The notes under the pieces: generated by a model | What the model saw: only the letters and a program-made list of their open reading frames with translations | What the model was told of the DNA's origin: nothing | Databases searched by the model: none | Position numbers and translations under genes: made by a program | Shown here: piece by piece, positions 1 to 13,093 of the stretch | How the letters are laid out: each line of letters begins with the position of its first letter | Numbering within the stretch: the first letter of the stretch is position 1 | NCBI RefSeq assembly: GCF_900112245.1 | Contig: NZ_FOYX01000001.1 | Span: 1,785,856-1,849,855 of the forward strand | Source of the DNA: Maribacter stanieri | Lineage (GTDB): Bacteria > Bacteroidota > Bacteroidia > Flavobacteriales > Flavobacteriaceae | Direction: 5' to 3' | DNA: 64,000 nt

Positions 1-35
1 GTTCGTTTACCTTCAACTTACAGGTTAATTTCTAA
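1..35 (+). CDS. SusC/RagA-type TonB-dependent transporter, 3' end only
   Basis: Only the last codons are in the window. The third frame reads SFTFNLQVNF followed by TAA at 33-35. Alternating hydrophobic residues ending in phenylalanine are the usual C-terminal beta-strand of an outer-membrane barrel. A SusD gene follows 30 bases later, and SusC directly before SusD is the standard order. The identity as SusC is inferred from this strand and the neighbour. Confidence 0.7.
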   Translation, partial: SFTFNLQVNF

Positions 36-65
36 TAGAAGTAGCTACAATAAAATAAAGAAATC

Positions 66-1619
66 ATGAAAAAAACATTAGTAATAATATTTACCCTAGT
101 TATGGCGGTAAGCTGTACCGAGGATTTTGAAACGATCAATATTAATCCTAATTATCCCGCTTCTGCACAACCAGAACTATTGTTGCCGGGCATTCAAAGA
201 GAGATGGCATACAATTGGGGCAGTCAAGGTTGGGAAGAAGGTTTTACCGTAGTACAATATGGCGCACGATTACAGTTTACTAGTGGCGATACCTATAATT
301 GGTCACCTTCTGGCGATCCGTATGATAATGCCTATGCATCTTTACGTGATGTGGAAAATATCATTAGGGATACTAGGGAAAATGAAGATGCACAGAATTA
401 CTATGGGGTTGCTTTGGTAATGAAATCTTGGATATACTCTTATGTTACCGATGCGTATGGCGATGTTCCTTATTCAGAAGCCACTAGTGGTATCGAAAAC
501 GGAAATGTAACACCTGTTTTTGATGCTCAAAGTACTATTTATGCTGGTATTCTGTCAGATTTGGAAATGGCGAATACGCTGTTGACCGATGCTGATAATA
601 TTTCGGGTGATATTTTCTACGATGGTGATATTGCAAAATGGAGAAAATTTGCAAACTCCCTTAGACTACGTTTGTTAATGCGTATCAGTGATGTTGATAA
701 TGCAACTGCAGTTGCAGGTATGACCCAAATAACAAGTAATCCTTCATTATATCCAATTTTTGAAAGTAACGATGATATGACTTTCGTGGAATGGAATTCT
801 GATAATCCACAACCTAAATATGATACCCGTAGTGGTAGTTTTGATGAGGTTCGTTTAAGCCAGACTTTAGAGAAACGTTTAAAAGAGTTAGGGGATAACC
901 GTTTGTATGTTTTTGCACAACCCACTTCAAATTCTGAAAAAGGAATTTTCTCTGAAGATTTTGATGATTATGTAGGTATGCCAAACGGATTAGATGATGA
1001 GGCTGCTTTAGGATACAGTCCTACGGGAAACCCTGATGAGTCTGGATCTAACTTTATTTCTAGATTAGGTATTTTACTAGGATGTAGAGCATGTAATCCA
1101 GAAGAAGCTTCAGCTACAGCTTCACATACAATTATTATGAGTTACTCTGAGCTACAGTTTATTTTAGCTGAAGCAGCAGAAAGAGGATTCATAACTTCTG
1201 GTGATGCAGCAATGTACTATGAAAATGGAATTAAAGCTTCTTTTGAGTATTATACGGAAAGAGTTGCTGCAGGCGGATGGTCAGATATTACCAATGCAAT
1301 GCAGGCTACAGATCTTGACGCATATGTAGCACAAGATGCTGTAGCTTTTACAGGTGATTCCGATGATAACTTAGCTAAAATTGCACTTCAAAAATGGATT
1401 TCTCTTTTCTATACCGGTTTTGAAGGCTGGTCAGATTGGAGAAGAACTGGTATGCCAGAGGTGACGCCTGGTCCAGATGCTGTTAATGATGGTCGGGTTC
1501 CAGTTCGTTTTCAATACCCAAATTCTGTAAAATCTACAAACAGTGAAAATTATAACGCTGCTGTTCAAAACATGGGTGCAGATAATATTAATACCAAACT
1601 TTGGTGGGATGTTTATTAA
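66..1619 (+). CDS. SusD/RagB-like outer-membrane nutrient-binding lipoprotein
   Basis: This 517-residue protein begins with a lipoprotein signal (hydrophobic residues 5-15, lipobox MAVSC with Cys17). The body fits the SusD-like family: an early NPNYPA stretch, a helical TPR-like core and the aromatic-rich C-terminal part with the GWSDWRRTG motif. SusD proteins sit on the cell surface as the lid of a SusC channel and bind the incoming nutrient. Here the partners downstream are phosphoesterases and ethanolamine genes rather than glycoside hydrolases, so the cargo is probably a phosphorylated amino-alcohol or its glycerol ester; that substrate is inference. The gene overlaps the next one by 11 bases, which implies coupled expression. 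Confidence 0.9.
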   Translation: MKKTLVIIFTLVMAVSCTEDFETININPNYPASAQPELLLPGIQREMAYNWGSQGWEEGFTVVQYGARLQFTSGDTYNWSPSGDPYDNAYASLRDVENIIRDTRENEDAQNYYGVALVMKSWIYSYVTDAYGDVPYSEATSGIENGNVTPVFDAQSTIYAGILSDLEMANTLLTDADNISGDIFYDGDIAKWRKFANSLRLRLLMRISDVDNATAVAGMTQITSNPSLYPIFESNDDMTFVEWNSDNPQPKYDTRSGSFDEVRLSQTLEKRLKELGDNRLYVFAQPTSNSEKGIFSEDFDDYVGMPNGLDDEAALGYSPTGNPDESGSNFISRLGILLGCRACNPEEASATASHTIIMSYSELQFILAEAAERGFITSGDAAMYYENGIKASFEYYTERVAAGGWSDITNAMQATDLDAYVAQDAVAFTGDSDDNLAKIALQKWISLFYTGFEGWSDWRRTGMPEVTPGPDAVNDGRVPVRFQYPNSVKSTNSENYNAAVQNMGADNINTKLWWDVY

Positions 1620-3288
1620 GCACGTGGATCTTAAAATCTTAGTGAGATTTATACCAATTTTTTTACTGACCATAGGGATGACCTCCCTATGGTCTTGTAA
1701 TTATGATAAATTAGATGATCTAAGTAGCAATCCAACCCATGTTGTAGTAATAGGGTTTGATGGGTTAAGTCCTGACGGATTACAACAAGCCAATACACCT
1801 ACTTTTGATAAAATAATGGTAGAAGGGGCATCTACTATGCATGCAAGATCTGTATTGCCAACAAGTTCTAGTACTAATTGGGCTTCCATGATTATGGGTG
1901 CCGGACCAGAACAACATGGTATTACCTCAAATTCTTGGGAACGGGATAATTTTGTCTTACCCGCGGTTACACAAAGCGAACCGTTTTTATTTCCATCTAT
2001 TTTTCATTTAATACGTGAACAAAAAAGTGCTGGAGAAATTGGTGCTATTTATCACTGGGGTGGTTTTGGCAGACTGTTTGAAAAAAGTGATGTGGACTTT
2101 GATGAGCACCCAGTAACGGAAGAAGAAACTGCCGTAAATGCCAGTAGCTATATAAAAGTGAAAAATCCACTGTTTACGTTTATTCACTTTGATCATATAG
2201 ATCACGCTGGTCATGAATATGGGCATGGTACAAAAGAATACTATACTTCTGTTGAAAAGGCAGATTCATTATTGGCAGAGGTTATGAAAGCAATTGCAGA
2301 GTCAGACATGGCAGAAAACACAATGGTCATAATTAGCTCCGACCATGGTGGAACAGGAAAAGGTCACGGCGGCGAGTCATTAGATGAAATAGAGATACCT
2401 TTTATTGTATGGGGTAAAGGTATAAGAAAGAACTATCAAATAAAGTATCCGGTATATCAATATGATAATGCGGCAACAGTAGCATATGCATTGCAAATTG
2501 AAACACCACGTGCTTGGATCGGTAAACCGGTTATTGAAGCCTTTGAGGGTGAAAAAGTGATTGATAAGTATCCTATCCTAGTGCAGTTAAAACAACCGGA
2601 ATTAGGGATGCATGCTAAAGGGTATTCTTCTGAAGGCGGATTGTATAATGATTCCGCAGAGCTTATTTTAAAAAATCCTAATGATAAGGGCGAAATTAAA
2701 TACACACTCAATGGTGCCATGCCAAAAAGTAACTCCGAAACGTTTACTTCCTCTGTTTTACTTAAGGAAAATACAGTGGTAAAGAGTGCCGTTTTCGTTG
2801 ATGGGAAACTAAGTAGTCCAGTAAATGAGGCTTATTTCAGAATAAAACCGGTAGCTCTTGTAAAGCCTATTGATTTTGAGGTTTTTCATTTAGATAACTT
2901 GTCTTTTATTCCATCTATAGGAAATAGAAAACCAGATGCAAAGGGTAATACTTTTGAATTTTCATCAGTAGAAGTCCGGTCGCACATAAAGCCAAACACT
3001 TTATTCAAATTTACCAGTAATCTTAAAATCGAAGAAGAAGATAACTACGAATTTGCTATTCGCTCAGATGACGGCAGCAAACTATTTATAGATGGAGCTT
3101 TGGTAGTTGATAATGATGGTGATCATGGTGTTAGAACAAAAAACGGGAGTATTGATTTAGAAAAAGGTAATCATACCATAGAAATGTTATGGTTTAATGG
3201 CGGTGGAGATGGTTGGTTAGATGTATATGTAAATAGCGATAAAATGCCTAACCAAATTTTGTCTACGAACCTTTTAAGAAAGAACTAG
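1609..3288 (+). CDS. Lipoprotein type I phosphodiesterase / nucleotide pyrophosphatase (alkaline phosphatase superfamily) with C-terminal PA14 domain
   Basis: The chosen ATG gives a 559-residue protein with a clear lipoprotein signal and lipobox LWSC at Cys30; a reading frame extends upstream to 1543 but would bury the signal. Metal-site motifs of the NPP family are present: Asp51 in GFDGL, the nucleophile region PTSSSTNW (84-91), DHIDHAGH (195-202) and SSDHGG (Asp245, His246). Residues about 345-435 look like a chitobiase C-terminal (CHB_HEX_C) domain and about 455-555 like a PA14 domain (RSDDGSKLFIDG). NPP enzymes hydrolyse phosphodiesters, and some mammalian members act on glycerophosphocholine, so a glycerophosphoethanolamine-type substrate is plausible here but not shown. 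Confidence 0.85.
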   Translation: MFIKHVDLKILVRFIPIFLLTIGMTSLWSCNYDKLDDLSSNPTHVVVIGFDGLSPDGLQQANTPTFDKIMVEGASTMHARSVLPTSSSTNWASMIMGAGPEQHGITSNSWERDNFVLPAVTQSEPFLFPSIFHLIREQKSAGEIGAIYHWGGFGRLFEKSDVDFDEHPVTEEETAVNASSYIKVKNPLFTFIHFDHIDHAGHEYGHGTKEYYTSVEKADSLLAEVMKAIAESDMAENTMVIISSDHGGTGKGHGGESLDEIEIPFIVWGKGIRKNYQIKYPVYQYDNAATVAYALQIETPRAWIGKPVIEAFEGEKVIDKYPILVQLKQPELGMHAKGYSSEGGLYNDSAELILKNPNDKGEIKYTLNGAMPKSNSETFTSSVLLKENTVVKSAVFVDGKLSSPVNEAYFRIKPVALVKPIDFEVFHLDNLSFIPSIGNRKPDAKGNTFEFSSVEVRSHIKPNTLFKFTSNLKIEEEDNYEFAIRSDDGSKLFIDGALVVDNDGDHGVRTKNGSIDLEKGNHTIEMLWFNGGGDGWLDVYVNSDKMPNQILSTNLLRKN

Positions 3289-3290
3289 AC

Positions 3291-4568
3291 TTGAAAAATT
3301 ATAGACATCTAAGTTTGGTTTTTATACTCTTTATTTCAGCATTGTGTTCGGCCCAAAGTAATGGTGAGCAGCTGCCATCTTGGGAAGAAGGTATGTTATA
3401 TATTCACCACATCAATACGGGTAGGGGAGATGCTGCTTTTGCAATTTTACCAGATGGTACTACATTGTTGATTGATGCGGGCGATACGTCAGAGAAGCAC
3501 CCAAGAACTTTATCTGCACGAAATGCGCAACGTATGCCTAATACTAATAAATCGGCTCCAGGTTGGCTTATAGATTATATACAGCAGTTTTTTCCAAAAG
3601 GATATAAAAAACAGTTGAATTATGCATTGATTACTCATTACCACGATGATCATTTTGGTGAGTTGGATAGTTTGAGGTTGAAGGCTTCTGATGGAGATTA
3701 TTTGCTTACCGGTATTACCGAAGTAGGTCATACTATACCTATTAATAAGATGTTGGATAGAGGGTTTTCATATCCAATTAATTTAAAGGATTACGCTATC
3801 CAAAACCAAGAACGGTTTACAAGCGATATCTACGGTATGGTACCAACCCTTAAAAATTATTGGAAGTTTTTAGAGGTTAAAAAGCATAAAACAGGAATGG
3901 TTCACGAGCAATTGGTCGCTGGTCAAAAAAATCAAATAGCACTAGTAAATAACCCCAATAAATTTCCAGAATTTCAGATCCGCAACATTGCTGTTAACGG
4001 TACCATATGGACAGGAATCGATAATGATACGCTAGCACTTTTTTCCAATGGTATTTACCCAGGTGAAAATCCGTTGAGCACCGGTATAAAAATCAGCTAC
4101 GGAGCGTTCGATTACTTTACAGGCGGAGATATAAGTGGCGTGAACGATTTTGGCGGAACAGATATGAATTCTATAGAAGCCAATATTGCACCTGTTATAG
4201 GAGCCGTTGATGTGGCAACATTGAATCATCATGGTAATCGTGATTCTCAAAATACGTACTATGTTCGTTCGCTAAGACCTAGAGTTTGGATTCAGCAAAA
4301 TTGGTCATCAGACCATCCGGGTGATGAAGTTTTAAGGCGTATCACCTCTGAAAAACTGTATCCGGGGCAGCGCGATATCTTTTCAAATGTAATGTTGCAA
4401 GCAAATAAAGATGTAATTGGTGATCGGTTGAATCAATATAAAAGTCAGAACGGACATATTGTACTTCGTGTGCATCCAGAAGGGAAATCATACACTATTT
4501 TTATTCTTGACGACACTTCGGTGAAGCGAGAAATAACAGCACAATTCGGACCTTATGAAGCAAGATAA
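3291..4568 (+). CDS. Exported metallo-beta-lactamase-fold hydrolase
   Basis: The 425-residue product starts at TTG, two bases after the previous stop, and has a signal peptide ending near CSAQ (about residue 22). The metal signature is THYHDDHFG with His116, His118, Asp120 and His121; a second ligand region is LNHHGN. The N-terminal strand IHHINTGRGDAAF resembles the ComEC/Rec2-like branch of the fold, which also includes the pneumococcal phosphorylcholine esterase. The product probably acts in the periplasm. A phosphodiesterase role beside the NPP enzyme is inference from context; the substrate is unknown. The 3' end overlaps the next gene by 14 bases. Confidence 0.75.
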   Translation: MKNYRHLSLVFILFISALCSAQSNGEQLPSWEEGMLYIHHINTGRGDAAFAILPDGTTLLIDAGDTSEKHPRTLSARNAQRMPNTNKSAPGWLIDYIQQFFPKGYKKQLNYALITHYHDDHFGELDSLRLKASDGDYLLTGITEVGHTIPINKMLDRGFSYPINLKDYAIQNQERFTSDIYGMVPTLKNYWKFLEVKKHKTGMVHEQLVAGQKNQIALVNNPNKFPEFQIRNIAVNGTIWTGIDNDTLALFSNGIYPGENPLSTGIKISYGAFDYFTGGDISGVNDFGGTDMNSIEANIAPVIGAVDVATLNHHGNRDSQNTYYVRSLRPRVWIQQNWSSDHPGDEVLRRITSEKLYPGQRDIFSNVMLQANKDVIGDRLNQYKSQNGHIVLRVHPEGKSYTIFILDDTSVKREITAQFGPYEAR

Positions 4569-5907
4569 ATCACAGAATAGGCGTACAGAAGGTGATATTA
4601 ATGGTACGAAGGCAAGGAAAGAATGGCATGCGGGTATTACTGATGCGAAGACGTTGCAACTTTTAGAAAAAGATGCCCGTTACTTTTTTCATCAAGCCTT
4701 GTCTACACCTTGTTTAGATGTATTAGATAATTGCAATGGTGCATATATTGAAAACATATCGGGTAAAAAATATCTTGATTTTCATGGAAATAATGTGCAC
4801 CAATTGGGTTTTTCGCATCCAAAATTAGTACAATGTTTAACGGAACAATTACAGGGACTTACATTTTCAACAAGAAGATATACCAATGAGCCTGCTATCC
4901 GATTTGCGGAAAAGCTGACTTCTTTGCTTCCCTCAGATTTGAACAGAGTCTTAATGACACCTAATGGAAGCTCGGCAATAGGTATTGCGTTGAAATTAGC
5001 GCGCGCTATTACCGGTAAATTTAAGGTAGTATCATTTTGGGATTCGTTTCATGGTGCTTCACTTGATGCAATTAGTGTGGGTGGTGAAGCTGTATTTAGG
5101 GAGTATATGGGACCTATGATGCCGGGTGTTGAAAGAATACCGCCACCGGTAACCTATCGTGGAATTTTTGAAGGTAACGAAAGCAAATGTTTAGAGCATT
5201 TAGAATATGTGTTCGCCAAAGAAGGTGATATCGGTGCTTTTATAACAGAAACAGTGCGTAACACAGATGTGCAATTGCCTTCGGTTGAATTTTGGCAAGA
5301 AGCCCGTGCCTTATGTGATAAATATGGAGTTGTTCTCATTTTAGACGAAATACCTATTGCATTGGGCAGAACAGGAAAAATGTTCGCTTTCGAGCATTAT
5401 GGAATAGAACCAGATATTCTGTGTTTGGGAAAAGGATTAGGAGGAGGCATTTTTCCACAAGCGGCAATTGTAACCCGAGATCGGTATAATAATTTTTCGG
5501 ATATATCATTGGGACATTACACCCATGAGAAGAGTCCACTAGGTGCAATAGCTGCATTGACAACCTTGGAAATTATTGTGGAAGAGAAAATTTTGCATAA
5601 GATTGCGGGTGACTCATTGACCATGTGTACTGCAATGACTATTTTAAAAGATAAATATGACTTGATCGGTGATGTTCGTGGTCGTGGATTGTTATGGGGA
5701 ATAGAGCTGGTAACCAATAGGGATACTAAAGAGAAAGCAATACATCAAGCGGAACAGGTAATGTATGAATGCCTTCATAATGGATTAAGCTTTAAGGTTT
5801 CTGCAGGCAATGTGCTGCAATTGGCACCGGCATTGACTATTTCTCGCAAAGAATTAAAAGATGCAATTCAAATATTAGATAATGCGCTATATCGCGTCAG
5901 TAATTAA
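4555..5907 (+). CDS. Class III PLP-dependent enzyme, candidate phosphoethanolamine phospho-lyase or related amino-alkylphosph(on)ate lyase
   Basis: This 450-residue protein has no signal peptide and is cytosolic. It shows the class III aminotransferase fold signatures: LDEIP with Asp264 (pyridine nitrogen contact), then GRTGK and PDILCLGKGLGGG with the Schiff-base lysine Lys293. The distinctive segment GHYTHEKSP follows. The family contains true aminotransferases but also lyases for phosphoethanolamine (AGXT2L1/ETNPPL type) and for (R)-1-hydroxy-2-aminoethylphosphonate (PbfA). Lying among phosphoesterases and eutBC, a lyase producing an aldehyde plus ammonia and phosphate fits best, though this is inference. 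It overlaps the preceding gene by 14 bases. Confidence 0.75.
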   Translation: MKQDKSQNRRTEGDINGTKARKEWHAGITDAKTLQLLEKDARYFFHQALSTPCLDVLDNCNGAYIENISGKKYLDFHGNNVHQLGFSHPKLVQCLTEQLQGLTFSTRRYTNEPAIRFAEKLTSLLPSDLNRVLMTPNGSSAIGIALKLARAITGKFKVVSFWDSFHGASLDAISVGGEAVFREYMGPMMPGVERIPPPVTYRGIFEGNESKCLEHLEYVFAKEGDIGAFITETVRNTDVQLPSVEFWQEARALCDKYGVVLILDEIPIALGRTGKMFAFEHYGIEPDILCLGKGLGGGIFPQAAIVTRDRYNNFSDISLGHYTHEKSPLGAIAALTTLEIIVEEKILHKIAGDSLTMCTAMTILKDKYDLIGDVRGRGLLWGIELVTNRDTKEKAIHQAEQVMYECLHNGLSFKVSAGNVLQLAPALTISRKELKDAIQILDNALYRVSN

Positions 5908-5913
5908 ACAGTT

Positions 5914-7500
5914 ATGAAAATACTTAAATTTATTTGGGTGGCTATCTTATTAATAGGGGCTGCAACATATGCACAAGATAAGGTTGTTTTTGTGGTACAA
6001 CCCTATTTACAAAATGCAAGTCCCACCGAAATGACTATTATGTGGGAGACTTCTATGGGAGAAGAGAGTGTAGTTGAATATGGAACTTCTCCTAAATTGG
6101 GCAAAAAAGCTACGGGTGTTGCTAATGATATTAATTTTACCAAAGCTCGTATTCATGAAGTGAATATTACAGGGCTAAAACGTTTTACGGAATATTTTTA
6201 TAGAGTAAAAACGGGTAAGTTATTATCAGATATCTATCAGTTTAAAACTCCTCCATTTGCAAGTGATCATGAATCATTCAATCTATTGGCAATGAGTGAT
6301 ATGCAAATAGATCATCAGAACCCTGATAAGTTCAATGAAATAGTAAATAAGGGGATAGTACCATTTTTAAAATCGGAATACGGTAACGAGGTGCCAGATG
6401 ATCTAGCATTGGTTTTAGTCCCTGGAGATTTGGTGGAGAACGGGGCAAAATATGAGCAATGGCAAAATGATTTTTTTAAACCTGCGAAAAATTTATTTTC
6501 AGAAGTACCTGTGTATCCTGTTTTGGGTAATCACGAGCGTAATTCTAACTTCTATTTCAAATATTTCAGCCTTCCTAAAAACGGAACACCAGCATATGCA
6601 GAGCATTGGTGGTATAAAGATTATGGAAATACCAGAATAATAGGACTGAATTCAAATGAAGGCTATAGAGATAGCCGTGAGCAATTTGCGTGGTTGAAAT
6701 CCTTACTTGAAGAAACAGCGAAAAACGAGGATATTGATTTTGTTTTTGCGCAATTACATCATCCACACAAATCGGAATTATGGATTCCTGGTGAAGAAGA
6801 ATCTTCAGGTAAAGTGGTGAAAATGTTAGAGGAGTTTACAACAGAAACAGGAAAACCAAGTCTTCACTTTTTTGGACATACGCATGGCTATTCTCGTGGG
6901 CAATCTAAAGACCATAAACATTTATGGGTTAATGTTGCAACGGCAGGCGGAGCAATTGATAATTGGGGTGAATTTGAAGGTAGGGATTATGATGAATTTA
7001 GTGTAACCCAAGATGAATACGGTTTTGTTATGGTTGAGGTAGATGGTGATAAAACAAACCCAAAATTCACCATAATAAGAATTAGTCGGGGTAATGAAAA
7101 TGTATTTCGAGAAAACGAACAGACCGATGAGATAACTATATATGCCAATGAGCATAAACCAAATATTCCAATAGCTGTTTCACCAAATGAAGTAATAGAA
7201 TTTACAGGAGGTATGTTAAAGGCAGAACCTTTTGAAAGTACTTTTGAGAATGCCTATCATGCAGCTTCGCACTGGCAGATTTCTACTACTGATGATTTTA
7301 CTAATTTGGTGTTGGATAGCTGGAAGCAATCTGAAAATTGGTATTATTTGGAAAACCGTCAAAAAGGTGATGATTTAACCGATGAACCTACTAGAAGATT
7401 ACAACCAAACACCTCTTATTTTTGGCGTGTTCGTTATAGAGATCAACATTTAAACTGGAGTGACTGGTCTACAATACAATCATTTAAAACTAATAATTAA
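5914..7500 (+). CDS. Exported purple-acid-phosphatase-like metallophosphoesterase with N-terminal and C-terminal Fn3-like domains
   Basis: The 528-residue product has a signal peptide (about residues 1-20, ending ATYAQ). Residues about 25-110 form the Fn3-like N-terminal domain of purple acid phosphatases (VQPYLQNASPTEMTIMWET). The calcineurin-type catalytic core follows with SDMQ (Asp129), PGDL (Asp172), GNHE (Asn206, His207), a histidine pair in QLHHPH and GHTHG (321-325). The C-terminal 100 residues resemble another Fn3 domain (NTSYFWRVRYRD). It should remove phosphate from monoesters in the periplasm, for example phosphoethanolamine. It starts six bases after the PLP-enzyme gene and belongs to the same apparent operon. 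Confidence 0.85.
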   Translation: MKILKFIWVAILLIGAATYAQDKVVFVVQPYLQNASPTEMTIMWETSMGEESVVEYGTSPKLGKKATGVANDINFTKARIHEVNITGLKRFTEYFYRVKTGKLLSDIYQFKTPPFASDHESFNLLAMSDMQIDHQNPDKFNEIVNKGIVPFLKSEYGNEVPDDLALVLVPGDLVENGAKYEQWQNDFFKPAKNLFSEVPVYPVLGNHERNSNFYFKYFSLPKNGTPAYAEHWWYKDYGNTRIIGLNSNEGYRDSREQFAWLKSLLEETAKNEDIDFVFAQLHHPHKSELWIPGEEESSGKVVKMLEEFTTETGKPSLHFFGHTHGYSRGQSKDHKHLWVNVATAGGAIDNWGEFEGRDYDEFSVTQDEYGFVMVEVDGDKTNPKFTIIRISRGNENVFRENEQTDEITIYANEHKPNIPIAVSPNEVIEFTGGMLKAEPFESTFENAYHAASHWQISTTDDFTNLVLDSWKQSENWYYLENRQKGDDLTDEPTRRLQPNTSYFWRVRYRDQHLNWSDWSTIQSFKTNN

Positions 7501-7507
7501 ATTACTT

Positions 7508-8593
7508 ATGGAAAGATTATTTAAAGTAACTGCTATTATCATGTTATTGACTTCTATGTCAATAAAAGCGCAGCAAGACAAGAATCCAAATGTGTTTTTG
7601 ATTACATTAGATGGGGTACGTTGGCAAGATGTATTTACTGGCATGGATACTAACTTGTTAAATAGCGACTATACTGAAAACAAGGAGCTATTAACCAGTA
7701 AATTTATGGGAAGCTCTTTAGAAGAAAACAGAAAATTACTGATGCCATTTTTCTGGAATACCATTGCCAAAGAAGGTCAATTACATGGGAATAGAACAAA
7801 AGGAAGTAAAGTAGACCTCACCAATAAAATGCTATTTTCTTACCCAGGATATAATGAGATTTTAACGGGTAAAGCTGATGATGAAAATATAGACAGTAAT
7901 GATAAAAATTACAATAAGAATAGTACCATCTTAGAAACAGCGAACATGTCTAATGGTTATAAGGGGAAAGTGGCAGCCTTTGGTAGCTGGGATGTTTTTC
8001 CGTTCATTATTAATGATAAGAGAAGTGGAGTGCCGGTTAATGCTGGTTATATGGATGCTTCTGGTGATTTAAATGAAAAAGAAAAGTTTTTAAATGAGAT
8101 ACAACGTCAAGCGCCTATAGTATGGGAGAGTGTTAGGTTAGATGTTTTTACGCATCATTTTGCAAAAGAATATGTAAAAAAGAACCATCCCAAATTAGTA
8201 TATATTTCATATGGCGAGACTGATGATTTTGCGCACGGTGGCTTGTTTGATTTCTACATGAAGTCATTACAAAATACAGATGCTTTAATTGCCGACTTAT
8301 GGAGTTTTGTTCAAAATGACCCTATATATAAAGACAATACTTATTTTATAATAACAACCGATCATGGAAGGGGAGAAGGTATTGAGGAAGGTTCTAAATG
8401 GACAGGTCATGGTTCAGATGTAAAAGGAGCAGAACATACATGGCTGGCTATATTGGGTCCAGATGTTAAGGCAATTGGAGAAGTTAGTAATGGGCAATTA
8501 TACACCAATCAAATTGCGCCAACAGTTGCTAAAATTTTAAACTTAAAAATAGATGCAGAGGTGATGCCGGGGAATCCACTTGAACTAAATTAG
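7508..8593 (+). CDS. Exported alkaline-phosphatase-superfamily hydrolase
   Basis: The selected ATG, seven bases after the previous stop, gives 361 residues with a clean signal peptide ending SIKAQQ; an in-frame extension to 7460 would overlap the previous gene and lacks a signal. Metal-ligand motifs of the superfamily are visible: ITLDG (Asp35), DDFAH (Asp239, His243), TTDHG (Asp285, His286) and GHGS (His301). It resembles the phosphoglyceromutase/phosphodiesterase branch and lacks the added domains of the NPP enzyme upstream. It is probably the last gene of the first transcription unit, since a strong terminator follows. Its 3' end is duplicated as a fragment at 12306-12401. Confidence 0.8.
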   Translation: MERLFKVTAIIMLLTSMSIKAQQDKNPNVFLITLDGVRWQDVFTGMDTNLLNSDYTENKELLTSKFMGSSLEENRKLLMPFFWNTIAKEGQLHGNRTKGSKVDLTNKMLFSYPGYNEILTGKADDENIDSNDKNYNKNSTILETANMSNGYKGKVAAFGSWDVFPFIINDKRSGVPVNAGYMDASGDLNEKEKFLNEIQRQAPIVWESVRLDVFTHHFAKEYVKKNHPKLVYISYGETDDFAHGGLFDFYMKSLQNTDALIADLWSFVQNDPIYKDNTYFIITTDHGRGEGIEEGSKWTGHGSDVKGAEHTWLAILGPDVKAIGEVSNGQLYTNQIAPTVAKILNLKIDAEVMPGNPLELN

Positions 8594-8643
8594 TCTAGTT
8601 GCATATAATGCTAAAATTTGTTTGCAACTTATCATGAGATAAT

Positions 8644-8678
8644 AACCGATACATCTTTAATGTGTATCGGTTTTTTTA
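8644..8678 (+). terminator. Rho-independent terminator after the phosphoesterase operon
   Basis: A perfect 10-bp stem (8644-8653 with 8663-8672, core CCGATACA/TGTATCGG) with a 9-base loop runs into seven T residues. It separates the SusD-phosphatase unit from the permease-eutBC unit. Confidence 0.85.
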
Positions 8679-8871
8679 TTACTACGGTTGGTTTAAATGT
8701 AGTTTATGTGTGCTTAAAATTCAAATTACCCAATTATTTTGTGTGATTTTTAATGATTTCGAAGTTTTTTACGAGTCCCTTTAAATAAAAATACATGTAT
8801 GGGTTTACGCCTATAAATTAAGCTATTTTTAAGATGATTATGATTCAACTTAATTTTATTAGAATTTAGAA

Positions 8872-10194
8872 ATGATAGTATCTGAAGATAATAAACAATC
8901 TAAAAAACTTGGAATTTTTGCCATCTGGGCTATTGGTGTGGGAATGGTTATTTCTGGCGAGTCTTTTGGTTGGAATTTAGGTTGGGCCATTACAGGACCA
9001 CTATGGTTTTTTGTTCCGGTTGCTGTAGCGGCACTAATGTATTTTGGCTTGGTACAAACATTAATTGAATTGGCATGTGTATACCCAGATGCTACAGGGC
9101 CACATACTTATGTAGAAAAAGCTTTTAATAAAAAATGGGGGGCATTTATAGGATTAGCCATTCTCTTTGAGTTTTTATTTGCCACACCGGCTATAGCAAG
9201 TTCATTGGGTGAGTATTTAGGGTTTTTAATGAATGATCTCTCTTTATCACCTTGGATAAGTACACTATTTTTGTTGGGTTTTTCGATTGTTAATCTTTTT
9301 GAAATGCACATAGGTGTCCGTTTTTTAATTCTATTGACCCTTTTGGCTATTTTGGAACTTTTTATGTATCAGGGTTCAGTATTTACTGCTTTTGAACTTC
9401 AGAACTTGTCAAATTCAAACGTGGGTAGTATAGATTTACAAAGTTTTGTGGAAGCAATTCCGTATGCGATGTGGTTATTTTTGGCAATTGAAGGGATATC
9501 GCTGATGACTAACGCAGTGGATAGAAAAAACTTTAGAAAAGTTATTGGGCGAGGTTATAATTTAGCATTTTTTACACTTCTTATACTTGCAGTTTTAGTT
9601 TTGGTGTTGGCTGCCGGAGGTATTGATTGGAATTTGCCCGAGAGTTTAGGATTATTGGAAGAAAACCACCCAATGCCAGCATCTATGGCTTTGATATTGG
9701 GAAAGGATCATTTTCTGGTGCAGGTCTTTACTTTTATTGGTTTATTTGGACTTATAGCTTCATTACAAGGAATAGCATTTGCGGCAACCAAACAGTTAGA
9801 ACCATTATTGCCAAGTATTAAGGATAATTTGGTGTCAAAACGAGTTATAGCCTCTACAATAGTATTTGTCATAAGTTTAGCGGCTATTTGGACAAGTCAA
9901 ACCGGTTTTTTAATTGAGGTATCTGTATTTGGGGCAGTATGTATGTATTTTGCGGTAAGTAGTTCTTTATTGGTATTGAGAAAACGAAACAATATACTGG
10001 CAGCGGGCGTTAATGTAAAAAATACAGCCTATTCACATAATAATTTTAATGGTATATTTTCATCTTTCAATGCATGGGTGGCAGTTATAATTTCACTAAT
10101 TTGTATAGGGTCATTTGCTTATCTACAATTTCAAGCCTTTATTATTTTTATAATCTGTAGTTTGGGCTATGTGTTTTTAATTAGAAGAAAATAA
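8872..10194 (+). CDS. eat: Ethanolamine permease, APC superfamily
   Basis: The 440-residue protein has about twelve hydrophobic segments. The N-terminal part GIFAIWAIGVGMVISGESFG and the segment GWAITGP are characteristic of the proton-coupled ethanolamine permeases of the APC superfamily. It would bring ethanolamine across the inner membrane for the ammonia-lyase encoded directly downstream. Its stop codon abuts the eutB start with no spacer, so the three genes form a tight operon. Confidence 0.9.
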   Translation: MIVSEDNKQSKKLGIFAIWAIGVGMVISGESFGWNLGWAITGPLWFFVPVAVAALMYFGLVQTLIELACVYPDATGPHTYVEKAFNKKWGAFIGLAILFEFLFATPAIASSLGEYLGFLMNDLSLSPWISTLFLLGFSIVNLFEMHIGVRFLILLTLLAILELFMYQGSVFTAFELQNLSNSNVGSIDLQSFVEAIPYAMWLFLAIEGISLMTNAVDRKNFRKVIGRGYNLAFFTLLILAVLVLVLAAGGIDWNLPESLGLLEENHPMPASMALILGKDHFLVQVFTFIGLFGLIASLQGIAFAATKQLEPLLPSIKDNLVSKRVIASTIVFVISLAAIWTSQTGFLIEVSVFGAVCMYFAVSSSLLVLRKRNNILAAGVNVKNTAYSHNNFNGIFSSFNAWVAVIISLICIGSFAYLQFQAFIIFIICSLGYVFLIRRK

Positions 10195-11565
10195 ATGGTA
10201 TATCGTTTCACATTAGGACACCAAAACTACCTTTTTGATGATTTAAAAACTCTAATGGCTAAGGCAAGTCCGCACCGTTCGGGAGATGTTTTGGCGGGTA
10301 TAGCGGCTAAAAACAATGTAGAACGAATTGCTGCTCAATATGCATTAAGTGAATTACCGTTAAAAACATTTTTAAAGGAGGCTGTAGTACCGTATGAAAG
10401 TGATGAGGTTACCCGCCTAATTATTGATACCCATGATGCTAAATCCTTTGAGCGTATCTCGCATTTAACTGTGGGTGAATTAAGAGATTTTTTTTTGGAA
10501 GACACTACAAATGGAAATACAATTCTCGAGTTAAGTAGAGCACTTACACCTGAGATGGTTGCAGCAGTTTCTAAATTAATGAGAAATCAAGATCTCATTG
10601 TGGTATCTTCTAAAATTGAATTAGTCACGCGTTTTAGAAATACATTAGGCTTAAAAGGTAATGTATCTATTCGACTACAACCCAATCATCCGACCGATGA
10701 TTTAAAAGGAATTTTAGCAAGTACTATAGATGGTTTGTTATATGGTTGCGGAGATGCCGTAATTGGTATCAACCCGGCTACAGATAGTCCGGAGGTGACG
10801 ATTAATTTATTAAAAATGCTTGAAGACCTTCGACTAAAATTTGAAATACCAACACAAAGTTGTGTGCTTTGCCATGTAACTACTGCAATGCAAATTATGA
10901 AGAAGGCTCCTGTAGATCTGGTGTTTCAGTCCATTACAGGTACAGAAAAGGCAAATAGTTCTTTTGGGATAAATTTAAATCTATTGTCTGAGGCTCATCA
11001 AGCTACTTTAGAGCTTGATCGTGGTACAATAGGTAACCAATGTATGTATTTTGAAACAGGTCAAGGATCTGCGCTATCTGCCAATGCCCACCATGGTGTA
11101 GATCAACAAACTATGGAAGCAAGGGCTTATGCGGTTGCTAGGCATTATGATCCATTATTGGTGAATTCTGTAGTGGGTTTTATAGGACCCGAATATTTGT
11201 ATGACGGTAAACAAATTATACGTGCTGGTCTAGAAGATCATTTTTGTGCAAAGGTAGTAGGCTTACCTATGGGGATGGATGTATGCTATACCAATCATGC
11301 AAATGCTGATCAAGATGATATGGATAATCTGCTAACACTTTTAGGTGTTGCCGGCTGTAATTTTTTTATGGGTGTTCCAGGAACAGATGATATCATGTTG
11401 AATTATCAATCTACTTCATTTCACGATGCGCTTTTTATACGAAAAGTGTTACAGAAAAAACCTGCGCCAGAATTTGAATCTTGGCTATTAAAAATGGGTA
11501 TTATAGATGGTGATGGGGTTAAATTAGATGTAAGGGGTTCACATAAATTATTAACCAATCTATGA
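10195..11565 (+). CDS. eutB: Ethanolamine ammonia-lyase large subunit
   Basis: The 456-residue protein is full length for EutB (about 450-465). Recognisable conserved stretches are ASPHRSGDVLAG near residue 25, the active-site region IGINPATDSPE, IPTQSCVLCHVTT, and the C-terminal FFMGVPGTDDIMLNYQSTS. EutB holds the barrel that, with EutC and adenosylcobalamin, converts ethanolamine to acetaldehyde and ammonia. The start codon follows the permease stop immediately and the 3' end overlaps eutC by four bases (ATGA). No reactivase gene (eutA) is found in the window. Confidence 0.97.
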   Translation: MVYRFTLGHQNYLFDDLKTLMAKASPHRSGDVLAGIAAKNNVERIAAQYALSELPLKTFLKEAVVPYESDEVTRLIIDTHDAKSFERISHLTVGELRDFFLEDTTNGNTILELSRALTPEMVAAVSKLMRNQDLIVVSSKIELVTRFRNTLGLKGNVSIRLQPNHPTDDLKGILASTIDGLLYGCGDAVIGINPATDSPEVTINLLKMLEDLRLKFEIPTQSCVLCHVTTAMQIMKKAPVDLVFQSITGTEKANSSFGINLNLLSEAHQATLELDRGTIGNQCMYFETGQGSALSANAHHGVDQQTMEARAYAVARHYDPLLVNSVVGFIGPEYLYDGKQIIRAGLEDHFCAKVVGLPMGMDVCYTNHANADQDDMDNLLTLLGVAGCNFFMGVPGTDDIMLNYQSTSFHDALFIRKVLQKKPAPEFESWLLKMGIIDGDGVKLDVRGSHKLLTNL

Positions 11566-12305
11566 GCAATAAGTTAGAAATACCAGCTAAATGGCAGCAA
11601 CTTAAAAGTTATACAAAAGCTAGAGTAGCATTGGGCAATGTTGGTACTAGTTTGCCTTTAAACGACGTACTTGCACTTAAGCATGCACATGCCTTAGCTA
11701 AAGATGCTATTCTTACTCAATTAGATAAAGAGTTTCTTAAGATCAAGGCTAAAGAACATGGTGTTTTATGCAGTGAATTCAAAAGTCAGGTTAAAGATCG
11801 GTTAGAATATTTAAAAAGACCTGATTTAGGTCGTAAACTAGTAAATACTTCTGAAGTTGAAAACATAAAAAAAGTAGATATTGTCATTGTTATTACCGAT
11901 GGTTTATCTGCAACGGCGGTCAATTCAAATGCTTTTTCAGTTTTGGATGCTGTTTTGCCAGATTTAAAAGAAAAATTTTCTATTTGTATTGCTTTAGTTG
12001 AACTAGGAAGGGTTGCAATAGGAGATCAGGTGGCAGAATTTTACAATGCTGATTTTGTTGCTGTTTTAATAGGAGAACGCCCAGGTCTTTCGTCTCCAGA
12101 AAGTATGGGTATTTATGTAACTTATAAACCTAAAATAGGATTTACAGATGAACGTAGAAATTGTATTTCCAATATTCATAAGGATGGTTTATCGAGTATT
12201 CAGGCGGCTACCTTACTTAAATATCTGATTGATCGTTCTTTTGCATTAAAGATTAGTGGAGTAGAGTTGAAGATTGATCTAGGAGCTATACTAGGTGATG
12301 AGTAA
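11562..12305 (+). CDS. eutC: Ethanolamine ammonia-lyase small subunit
   Basis: The 247-residue protein matches EutC: TKARVALGNVGTSLP near the start, DGLSATAVNSNA in the middle and the GERPGLSSPESMGIY motif near residue 190. EutC completes the cobalamin-binding site of the lyase. It overlaps eutB by four bases, which indicates translational coupling. A decayed gene fragment begins directly after its stop codon. Confidence 0.97.
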   Translation: MSNKLEIPAKWQQLKSYTKARVALGNVGTSLPLNDVLALKHAHALAKDAILTQLDKEFLKIKAKEHGVLCSEFKSQVKDRLEYLKRPDLGRKLVNTSEVENIKKVDIVIVITDGLSATAVNSNAFSVLDAVLPDLKEKFSICIALVELGRVAIGDQVAEFYNADFVAVLIGERPGLSSPESMGIYVTYKPKIGFTDERRNCISNIHKDGLSSIQAATLLKYLIDRSFALKISGVELKIDLGAILGDE

Positions 12306-12401
12306 TTTTACACAAATTAAATTTCACCTACAGTTGCTAAAATTTTAAACTTAAAAATAGATGCAGAGGTGATGCCTGCTACCACTTTAAATTTGGAATA
12401 A
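12306..12401 (+). pseudogene. 3' remnant of an alkaline-phosphatase-superfamily gene
   Basis: This short stretch matches the last 32 codons of the gene at 7508-8593. Bases 12330-12376 are identical to 8522-8568 (47 of 47), and the match continues more weakly on both sides. The reading frame gives FYTN, then a TAA where the intact gene has CAA (Gln), then ISPTVAKILNLK and the ending ATTLNLE instead of GNPLELN. No upstream coding part remains because eutC ends immediately before it. It is a relic of a second copy or of a rearrangement. Confidence 0.85.
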
Positions 12402-12428
12402 AAGATTATTCTAAGTTTTCTATAATTA

Positions 12429-12466
12429 AAATGGACCTGTTTATACGTTAAACAGGTCCATTTTTT
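12429..12466. terminator. Bidirectional terminator between eutC and the SIMPL-domain gene
   Basis: A perfect 15-bp stem (12429-12443 with 12449-12463; core ATGGACCTGTTTA) with a 5-base loop has A and T runs on its two sides. It lies between convergent genes and can serve both. Confidence 0.9.
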
Positions 12467-12481
12467 ATAAGAATTAAGCTG

Positions 12482-13093
12482 TTATTTCATTTGGTAAACA
12501 ACATTTACTGTGAATTGTTCTTGATAATCAGTGTAGTAGCTAGTCCAGTCTTCATTGTGGTATTGATTGCTACTAATAGAAATTATTTCACCAACGCTAG
12601 TGTTTATTGCCTTACATAAGCTATTTGCATTTTTCATAGCATCTTTTAATGCTAATTCAAGAGCTGCTTTATTTTTTTCTGAAGATACATGTTGTTTAAC
12701 TTGAAATTGTAATTGTACACCTTGCAAATTGGTCTTTACTAATTTCATAGCTATTTCTTTAGAGTTGGTTTCATAATAAAGTACTGTACCATCTCTTTGG
12801 TAGCCTAAAGAAAAATATTCCATTTCTTTTTCTTCAAATTTAGATACATCAACACCATTTTCTTTTAGAGCAGTAAAGTATTGTTTTTTTAATTGCTCCA
12901 AATTCTCCATTCGGGTATCGGCATAATAGACTTGATCCATACTCAAGGTAGCCTTAATACGATACTTTTCAATTGTCTTCTCTAAAGGCGCTGCGCCAGA
13001 TACAGTCACTGTACGTTCTTTTGGATTAGTTTGGGCTTCAGTAGATGAAATTCCAATTAAAATTAGTACTAAGAACAGTGTGAATTTTTTCAT
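12482..13093 (-). CDS. SIMPL-domain (DUF541) exported protein
   Basis: The second in-frame ATG gives 203 residues starting MKKFTLFLVLILIG with a signal peptide ending STEAQ; the frame extends upstream to 13120 but would put nine polar residues before the signal. The body contains the SIMPL-like pattern RTVTVSGAAPLEK, ALKDAMKNANSLCKAI and a C-terminal VNVVYQMK strand. Proteins of this family are periplasmic and of uncertain role. The gene stands alone, convergent with eutC. Confidence 0.8.
   Translation of the reverse strand: MKKFTLFLVLILIGISSTEAQTNPKERTVTVSGAAPLEKTIEKYRIKATLSMDQVYYADTRMENLEQLKKQYFTALKENGVDVSKFEEKEMEYFSLGYQRDGTVLYYETNSKEIAMKLVKTNLQGVQLQFQVKQHVSSEKNKAALELALKDAMKNANSLCKAINTSVGEIISISSNQYHNEDWTSYYTDYQEQFTVNVVYQMK

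Follow-up and report, generated by a model that had tools for sequence, protein, structure and literature searches.

The stretch of 64,000 nucleotides analyzed here, hereafter the window (positions 1785856 to 1849855 of contig C9 of Maribacter stanieri; completeness score of the source assembly, 100%), carries at its left end part of a gene cluster which is likely to represent a SusCD-linked aminophosphonate utilization locus with an accessory ethanolamine module, and whose gene content is predicted to give rise to acetaldehyde, ammonia, and phosphate. The locus runs approximately 14 kb past the left edge of the window, and the remaining phosphonate genes are located there, within the 19.9 kb of adjoining sequence that was examined (L002). 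The original prediction, made from the window alone, had described the end of a susC gene, a susD gene, an NPP-type phosphodiesterase, a metallo-beta-lactamase (MBL)-fold hydrolase, a class III pyridoxal phosphate (PLP) enzyme, two phosphatases, an ethanolamine permease, and eutBC in one direction, and open reading frame (ORF) listing and family profile searches located all of these genes on the + strand and in that order.

Probable aminophosphonate core of the locus

Because the PLP enzyme passes the curated model for PbfA, phnW and phnX border the genes for its Vibrio relatives, and genes of the PbfD and PhnX-like types keep it company, the conserved route is believed to be that of aminophosphonate breakdown, an assignment of the locus core in which, on sequence grounds, we place fair confidence. 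The PLP enzyme (positions 4555 to 5907) scores 709.7 bits against the PbfA model NF049939 (cut-off, 525), and its nearest named relatives are those of Maribacter ulvicola (90%), M. caenipelagi (89%), and M. litoralis (88%). No model named for ethanolamine-phosphate phospho-lyase was present among the best 25 of the 69 NCBIfam matches. A tblastn search of plasmids with PbfA returned 20 records, the matches listed including nine from Vibrio with 55.7 to 58.1% identity, and a viral collection yielded one match, at 25% identity. In two of three plasmid regions examined, both of them from Vibrio and the third being without annotation, the relative sits between phnW and phnX with aminoethylphosphonate (AEP) transporter genes nearby, a neighborhood which, according to the available text of PMC8154272, was the setting of PbfA discovery.

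The oxidoreductase of the left flank, a flavin (FAD)-dependent protein, scores 406.6 bits against TIGR03364 (cut-off, 285.1) and is taken to be a PbfD-type aminophosphonate oxidase because PbfD1 carries the same annotation in the available portion of PMC10590968. As reported there, PbfD1 and PbfD2 oxidize N-methyl-AEP and AEP to phosphonoacetaldehyde, and PbfD2 can replace PhnW; the outcome of a profile search of the genome, in which no PhnW exceeded the cut-off (best score, 36.8; cut-off, 400.8), agrees with this PhnW-free route of PbfD2 and PhnX. The same type of search identified no canonical PhnX over the cut-off in the genome, while the hydrolase encoded in the left flank passes TIGR03351 with 231.1 bits (cut-off, 218.9). 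When this hydrolase was aligned with 24 of 62 relatives (alternate sequences in order of identity, leaving out the lowest-ranking), D10, located within the motif DMAGT, and K49 were invariant in all 25 sequences, K49 aligning with the Lys of PhnX entry 2iof, a site which is occupied by Arg in entry 2ioh. The counterparts of D10 and K49 in PhnX are presumably the catalytic Asp and the Schiff-base Lys. On the basis of these families, both AEP and 1-hydroxy-2-aminoethylphosphonate (HAEP) should reach phosphonoacetaldehyde and, subsequently, acetaldehyde and phosphate. The proposal that SusCD uptake is here tied to ethanolamine phosphoesters thus holds with regard to phosphoester and phosphonate chemistry and the lack of carbohydrate-active enzymes, but not with regard to the core, which, in light of the PbfA model, the Vibrio context, and the PbfD and PhnX-like genes, does not appear to be dedicated to phosphoethanolamine.

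PbfA exceeded its cut-off in 25 of 349 genomes sampled from the Flavobacteriaceae. Among 25 regions taken from the other 24 genomes with PbfA (up to 20 kb on each side; four, from G144, G329, G162, and G018, were shorter), SusC2 and SusD2 were each present in 23, a label which at low identity may include paralogues, while the XRE regulator, NPP, and the purple-acid-phosphatase-type (PAP) enzyme were each found in 20, DUF5690 in 18, PbfD and the PhnX-like hydrolase in 17, and the MBL protein and the alkaline-phosphatase-superfamily enzyme APx in 13. A core of seven genes (DUF5690, PbfD, PhnX-like, SusC2, SusD2, NPP, and PbfA) was complete in 16 of these regions. A second sample, obtained with an alignment of 18 of the 27 family-sample PbfA hits, consisted of the best 80 of 253 relatives in named genomes, with flanks of up to 10 kb or to the contig end, a limit which cost DUF5690 most; here, NPP accompanied PbfA in 76 loci, SusD2 in 72, SusC2 in 70, XRE in 63, PAP, APx, and the PhnX-like hydrolase in 62 each, PbfD in 61, MBL in 46, and DUF5690 in 34. 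PbfD and the PhnX-like gene were adjacent in 61 of the 80. As the two samples share genomes, their counts are not additive. Most named loci belong to genera that are marine by name, together with freshwater or soil Flavobacterium and one metagenome-assembled genome of the Cytophagales.

Predicted uptake, release, and regulation

The locus holds two SusCD pairs, the first of which stands with PhoA1, a fusion of GDPD-type and alkaline phosphatase domains (PF13653 and PF00245). Besides PhoA1, SusC1, and SusD1, the left flank encodes the DUF5690 membrane protein, the TIGR03364 oxidoreductase, the TIGR03351 PhnX-like hydrolase, a divergent XRE-cupin regulator, and SusC2. The gene for SusC2 starts at L002:16712 and extends into the window with its last 35 bp (positions 1 to 35); its frame, completed from the flanking contig, specifies 1,059 amino acids and scores 658.5 bits against TIGR04056 (cut-off, 368.25). 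It is followed by susD2 (66 to 1619), encoding a SusD-like_2 outer membrane lipoprotein (PF12771, 326.8 bits). In the 17 locus proteins scanned with Pfam, neither glycoside hydrolases nor polysaccharide lyases were represented by a catalytic domain, and in this respect the locus departs from a polysaccharide utilization locus (PUL); family profiles instead revealed SusCD joined to phosphatases and phosphodiesterases, a composition of the Pus type. In four sibling Maribacter genomes (G356, G362, G354, and G380; regions L218 and L220-L221), two genes lie between those for PhoA1 and SusC1, with products of 187 to 189 and 321 to 339 amino acids; no such genes occupy that place in the genome of the window. 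We take these two sibling proteins to resemble an ECF sigma factor with the corresponding anti-sigma factor.

Four putatively exported hydrolases are encoded in the window, their export signals having been assigned by eye. The NPP-type phosphodiesterase (1609 to 3288, 1609 being the probable start of an ORF listed from 1543) has a lipoprotein-like start and, in addition to its catalytic domain (PF01663, 103.4 bits), contains CHB_HEX_C (PF13290) and PA14 (PF07691) domains; its best solved relatives are ENPP4 and bacterial NPP, and its PA14 and chitobiase-C-terminal domains hint at a carbohydrate-borne substrate. The MBL-fold hydrolase (3291 to 4568) possesses a signal-peptide-like start and an HxHxDH motif that is intact in an alignment of the protein with 20 of 46 relatives, its nearest counterparts being the ComEC MBL domain and the phosphorylcholine esterase Pce. 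All three of its sequence profile matches in the PDB are to pneumococcal Pce (best E value, 1.7e-7), whereas by its predicted fold (pLDDT, 70.8) the protein lies closer to the MBL domain of ComEC (Z score, 18.8) than to Pce (13.4). The PAP-type metallophosphoesterase (5914 to 7500; PF16656, 75.8 bits; PF00149, 58.7 bits) and APx (7508 to 8593; PF01676, 30.4 bits; probable start at 7508, ORF listed from 7460) likewise begin with signal-peptide-like sequences.

The predicted model of the DUF5690 protein (pLDDT, 83.5) found its best solved match, in first place in both fold comparisons, in human SLC37A4, a glucose-6-phosphate exchanger (Z score, 34.0; 362 residues; 3.2 Å). SLC37A4 is a member of the organophosphate:phosphate antiporter (OPA) family. 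The DUF5690 alignment took in the protein and all 22 full-length relatives, and at the level of the sequence profile the E value was 0.57. No paper on DUF5690 was found in the open-licence literature, nor was any joining phosphonate and aminoethylphosphonate with TonB-dependent uptake in Flavobacteriaceae.

It is proposed that the exported NPP with its PA14 domain, together with the MBL, PAP, and APx enzymes and the PhoA1 fusion, would free AEP, HAEP, and phosphoethanolamine or ethanolamine from lipids or glycans, larger pieces being presumably carried through the outer membrane by the SusCD pairs. The DUF5690 protein, apparently a major facilitator superfamily (MFS) carrier most like organophosphate exchangers, may then import aminophosphonates into the cytoplasm, a role suggested by its genomic context and predicted fold. 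By analogy with characterized members of the families to which profiles and residues assign them, the PbfD-type oxidase would convert AEP, and PbfA would convert R-HAEP, to phosphonoacetaldehyde, from which the PhnX-like hydrolase would produce acetaldehyde and phosphate. Eat is expected from its family to import ethanolamine, and EutBC, with adenosylcobalamin, to yield acetaldehyde and ammonia, such that the AEP, HAEP, and ethanolamine arms would converge on acetaldehyde.

Phosphoethanolamine or AEP, also in N-methylated form, is borne on glycans and glycolipids of invertebrates, fungi, and protists, as stated in the available text of PMC4891362, and such molecules could supply both the AEP and the ethanolamine arms. 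A more ambitious version of the proposal, which we put forward only tentatively, is that of a zwitterion utilization locus, in which the SusCD/PUL plan would have been reused for the amine-bearing phosphonate and phosphate head groups that lipids and glycans of marine invertebrates or protists carry; a Pce-like esterase would cut AEP or phosphoethanolamine off its carrier, DUF5690 would be the aminophosphonate importer, and all three arms would end in acetaldehyde. The combination of a sugar-type uptake system with aminophosphonate enzymes and added ethanolamine-degrading genes suggests that these bacteria obtain phosphorus, carbon, and nitrogen from marine lipids or glycans whose head groups bear an amine. 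Phosphonates contribute importantly to the phosphorus supply of some environments, marine ones foremost (PMC8154272, in its available text), and the open-licence literature yielded little on the means by which Bacteroidota import and break open macromolecules that carry phosphonates. For these steps the locus supplies candidates in the form of an outer membrane uptake system, the DUF5690 inner membrane transporter, enzymes releasing the head group, and a regulator with a candidate operator.

This regulator, the XRE-cupin protein, is predicted to act at paired TATTTGTAAA sites before susC2. Of 59 distinct intergenic regions between xre and susC2, 58 contain the word TATTTGTAAA and 50 contain it in both orientations, whereas in 200 rounds of first-order Markov copies, searched in either orientation, it turned up in 0.86 regions on average and in 5 at most, a contrast which is descriptive because the word was picked from an alignment of 15 of those same regions and the regions are related by descent. 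The surroundings of the sites in that alignment were poorly conserved. The best curated relative of the regulator is PuuR, at 48.1 of 211 bits, far under the cut-off. The presence of a dedicated regulator and a conserved operator-like pair suggests a specific inducer.

The ethanolamine module

Downstream of apx lie eat (8872 to 10194), encoding an ethanolamine-permease-type APC transporter (PF13520, 71.6 bits), eutB (10195 to 11565; PF06751, 718.2 bits), and eutC (11562 to 12305; PF05985, 258 bits). The products of the latter two, the large and small subunits, respectively, both exceed their curated cut-offs (706.3 bits against NF011649, cut-off 554; 267.5 bits against NF003971, cut-off 230) and are thus assigned as ethanolamine ammonia-lyase; a cobalamin adenosyltransferase (197.4 bits) is also present. 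Between the phosphonate unit and eat-eutBC, a terminator-like hairpin on the + strand (8644 to 8672; 11-pair stem and T tail; fold z = -4.48) probably splits the gene run into two transcription units, and similar sequence precedes eat in three other genomes in an alignment assessed by eye. Against the hairpin, a scan of positions 8400 to 12600 gave 4 terminator-like sites versus 2.4 (standard deviation, 1.7) in shuffles, and promoter-like sites numbered 18 versus 17.8; taken alone, these counts are uninformative. The complete route to acetaldehyde, ammonia, and phosphate that had been proposed is retained in part: its end products are plausible, but a single operon is unlikely because the hairpin precedes eat.

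An intergenic element with a terminator-like hairpin at L002:4954-5037 (G000:C9:1770953-1771036) resembles a small RNA. Relatives of this element precede phoA1 or eat in sibling Maribacter, with a looser one after apx, while in its own genome it recurs as the hairpin part only, directly before eat. At gathering thresholds, Rfam identified only a tmRNA in 145 kb (the window, L002, L219, L220, and L132; the G356 leader was outside this set), and in these sequences eat is thus preceded by no RNA family described to date.

Beyond eutC, a residual duplicate of the apx 3' end (99 bases, 12295 to 12393, + strand, matching 8487 to 8591) reached a local score of 136, compared to a maximum of 38 in 200 single-base shuffles, and is read as the scar which marks the insertion of eat-eutBC in the genome of the window. 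The simplest history would be the arrival of a segment bearing an apx end and eat-eutBC, as arranged in Cellulophaga baltica (L132), where eat-eutBC directly follows APx as in the window genome and a short PhoA1-like ORF follows eutC. C. baltica and the sibling Maribacter are about equally far from the window genome (EutB, 83%; Eat, 75 to 79%; EutC, 67 to 68%).

Within the genus, eutB was found in 3 of 36 Maribacter genomes, each of which belongs to the 6 with pbfA, and in all 3 the eut genes are joined to the locus, at its right end in the window genome and at its left end in two siblings, in which eat-eutB-eutC lies approximately 0.4 kb before phoA1. The locus is also present without eut genes in the siblings G354 and G380. 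Because all 3 Maribacter eutB genomes join the module to the locus, at either end, the ethanolamine link is considered real but accessory: the module recurs beside the locus in few genomes and is probably transcribed separately, and the aminophosphonate core is more probably than not used jointly with ethanolamine. That relatives lack eat-eutBC beside the locus was rejected as decisive, since the genus survey found left-end copies in two genomes, outside the 10-kb flanks.

Elsewhere in the family sample, 9 of the 24 other PbfA genomes encode a fused EutB of another type, situated on a separate contig or 0.9 to 1.1 Mb away, and genomes with pbfA and eutB overlapped in 10 cases versus 1.2 expected, a figure which is uncorrected for descent and in which 9 of the 10 genomes carry the fused EutBC. 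All 12 fused EutB-EutC proteins of that sample (regions L094-L105 and L114-L125; genomes G211, G227, G329, G236, G262, G011, G172, G231, G108, G049, G347, and G144, 9 of which also have PbfA) begin with what appears by eye to be a Tat-like or lipoprotein-like export signal (e.g., SRKDFLNTMGLLGAS; some with Cys), which suggests an ethanolamine ammonia-lyase relative that is exported. In four other genomes, from three genera, canonical eutBC had no pbfA locus in the surrounding 24 to 40 kb, one of these stretches ending at a contig end. A plasmid search with positions 8300 to 12500 returned 60 records, each of which spans less than 80% of the query, and the 20 listed match only the eutB-eutC part. 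On a plasmid of Vibrio sp. HDW18 from a freshwater mussel (L231), phnW, a PbfA-type gene, and phnX are followed on the same strand, approximately 7 kb beyond phnX, by eutBC; as unrelated genes intervene, this arrangement was given no weight as support for a phosphonate-ethanolamine link. The open-licence literature contained nothing found to join ethanolamine ammonia-lyase with phosphonate and aminoethylphosphonate.

Weighing of the readings and relation to described systems

Several observations weigh against an aminophosphonate locus with a linked ethanolamine module. With regard to the core, the seven-gene set was incomplete in 9 of the 25 family regions, 8 of which were without PbfD and the PhnX-like gene, and the hydrolase, at 106.5 of 220 bits, falls far under the curated TIGR01422 cut-off for PhnX; as it passes TIGR03351 but misses this equivalog cut-off, it is named PhnX-like only. 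Other MFS carriers (Z scores, 30 to 32) follow closely behind SLC37A4 in the fold match of DUF5690, the exported phosphatase families are unspecific, and the presence of AEP or HAEP on the natural substrate is conjecture extending beyond the sequence. With regard to the module, Eat reaches 233.8 of the 381.75 bits of the TIGR00908 equivalog cut-off and is named Eat-type only, and the sole match to the EutA profile in the genome (32.7 bits; cut-off, 27) covers 80 of 475 positions. The original prediction had named a break in synteny between the phosphatases and eat-eutBC among relatives as evidence that would count against it, and such a break is largely what was observed: eat-eutBC was not seen beside the locus in any of the 25 family regions (flanks of up to 20 kb) or in 79 of the 80 named loci (10-kb flanks), the sole exception being C. 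baltica, and one of the 79, M. litoralis (L131), carrying eat-eutBC at the far left end of its locus, visible in a longer stretch. No TATTTGTAAA site precedes eat in the four genomes in which eat-eutBC adjoins the locus, and since a search of the window for TATTTGTAAATA with one mismatch allowed gave 3 matches versus 3.3 expected, control of eat-eutBC through such a site was rejected. Restriction of eutB to the 6 Maribacter genomes with pbfA has a P value of 0.003 (0.005 for the 30 best assemblies), which ignores descent and derives from a small sample of 3 eutB genomes, among which two EutB sequences are 96% alike. Located behind a terminator-like hairpin, inserted, preceded by no TATTTGTAAA site, and seen beside the locus in few relatives, eat-eutBC could be only weakly tied to the phosphonate core.

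The closest described systems are the Pi-responsive Pus (PusCD) loci of Flavobacterium, so that the claim that no system of such composition had been described was partly wrong: phosphorus-responsive SusCD systems, some with phosphonate-degrading enzymes, are reported for Flavobacterium johnsoniae in the available text of PMC8115612. Like these, the Maribacter locus links SusCD pairs to phosphatases and phosphodiesterases in the absence of carbohydrate-active enzymes, and its PhoA1 shares PF00245 and PF13653 with Fjoh_3249 of PUSII, which adjoins a Pi-responsive SusCD (PMC8115612, same portion). It may on these grounds be a general phosphate starvation locus, by which any phosphoester is scavenged and for which phosphonate genes are one output of several; this account, to which we accord a limited but real chance, overlaps with the favored one. 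The dedicated XRE-cupin regulator and operator-like pair, however, point to a specific inducer, and NPP and SusD2 accompany PbfA in the great majority of the named loci. Unlike the Pus systems of F. johnsoniae, the Maribacter locus combines a defined set of PbfD, PhnX-like, and PbfA enzymes with two SusCD pairs and the ethanolamine genes, while the Pus description, as far as the available text of PMC8115612 extends, names no PbfA, PbfD, DUF5690, or ethanolamine genes, the word "ethanolamine" occurring 0 times in its main text.

That the phosphonate locus and an ethanolamine operon are unrelated neighbors, brought together by recombination and without a functional tie, is regarded as less likely than not. 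The dividing hairpin, the insertion scar, the lack of eat-eutBC beside the locus in most relatives, the distant fused EutB of nine other PbfA genomes, and the canonical eutBC genes lacking a pbfA locus nearby are all consistent with this view, but the module adjoins the locus at two different ends among the 3 Maribacter eutB genomes, and again in C. baltica, and pbfA and eutB co-occur beyond expectation, with the limits given above. Least probable is a dedicated ethanolamine phosphoester locus, with a PLP enzyme resembling ethanolamine-phosphate phospho-lyase, which the class III group also includes (PMC8154272, available text), and one route from glycerophosphoethanolamine to acetaldehyde, since the phosphodiesterases, eat-eutBC, and the GDPD-type domain of PhoA1 that would fit it are countered by the usual lack of eat-eutBC beside the locus in relatives, by the inactivity of Vibrio splendidus PbfA on ethanolamine reported in the same text, and by the PbfA cut-off, the phnW/phnX context, and the frequent PbfD and PhnX-like company (61 of 80 named loci) on which a phospho-lyase identity was rejected.

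The favored reading, an aminophosphonate locus with an accessory ethanolamine module, also bears comparison with the Vibrio PbfA-phnWX clusters, in which PbfA similarly feeds HAEP to phosphonoacetaldehyde hydrolysis (PMC8154272, available text). Those clusters contain PhnW and canonical PhnX, with an AEP ABC transporter in the regions examined, whereas the Maribacter locus contains a PbfD-type oxidase, a TIGR03351 PhnX-like hydrolase, DUF5690, and SusCD. Mariniblastus fucicola presumably belongs to another phylum. Its PbfD2 and PhnX resemble the route proposed here in that AEP is oxidatively deaminated without PhnW and phosphonoacetaldehyde is then hydrolyzed, and the description of its cluster, in the available portion of PMC10590968, names no PbfA, SusCD, or ethanolamine genes. 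In Maribacter forsetii, the SusCD pair P177_RS04595/04600 has as neighbors an alkaline phosphatase, an FAD-dependent oxidoreductase, and a phosphonatase-like hydrolase (PMC11345257, available text), which, as described, are the kinds of genes found in the left half of the present locus. This pair was interpreted by its authors, from expression, as serving laminarin uptake (PMC11345257, same portion); because a laminarin-assigned SusCD has neighbors of these kinds, SusCD expression alone is no proof of glycan uptake, and the laminarin assignment of P177_RS04595/04600 may merit re-examination.

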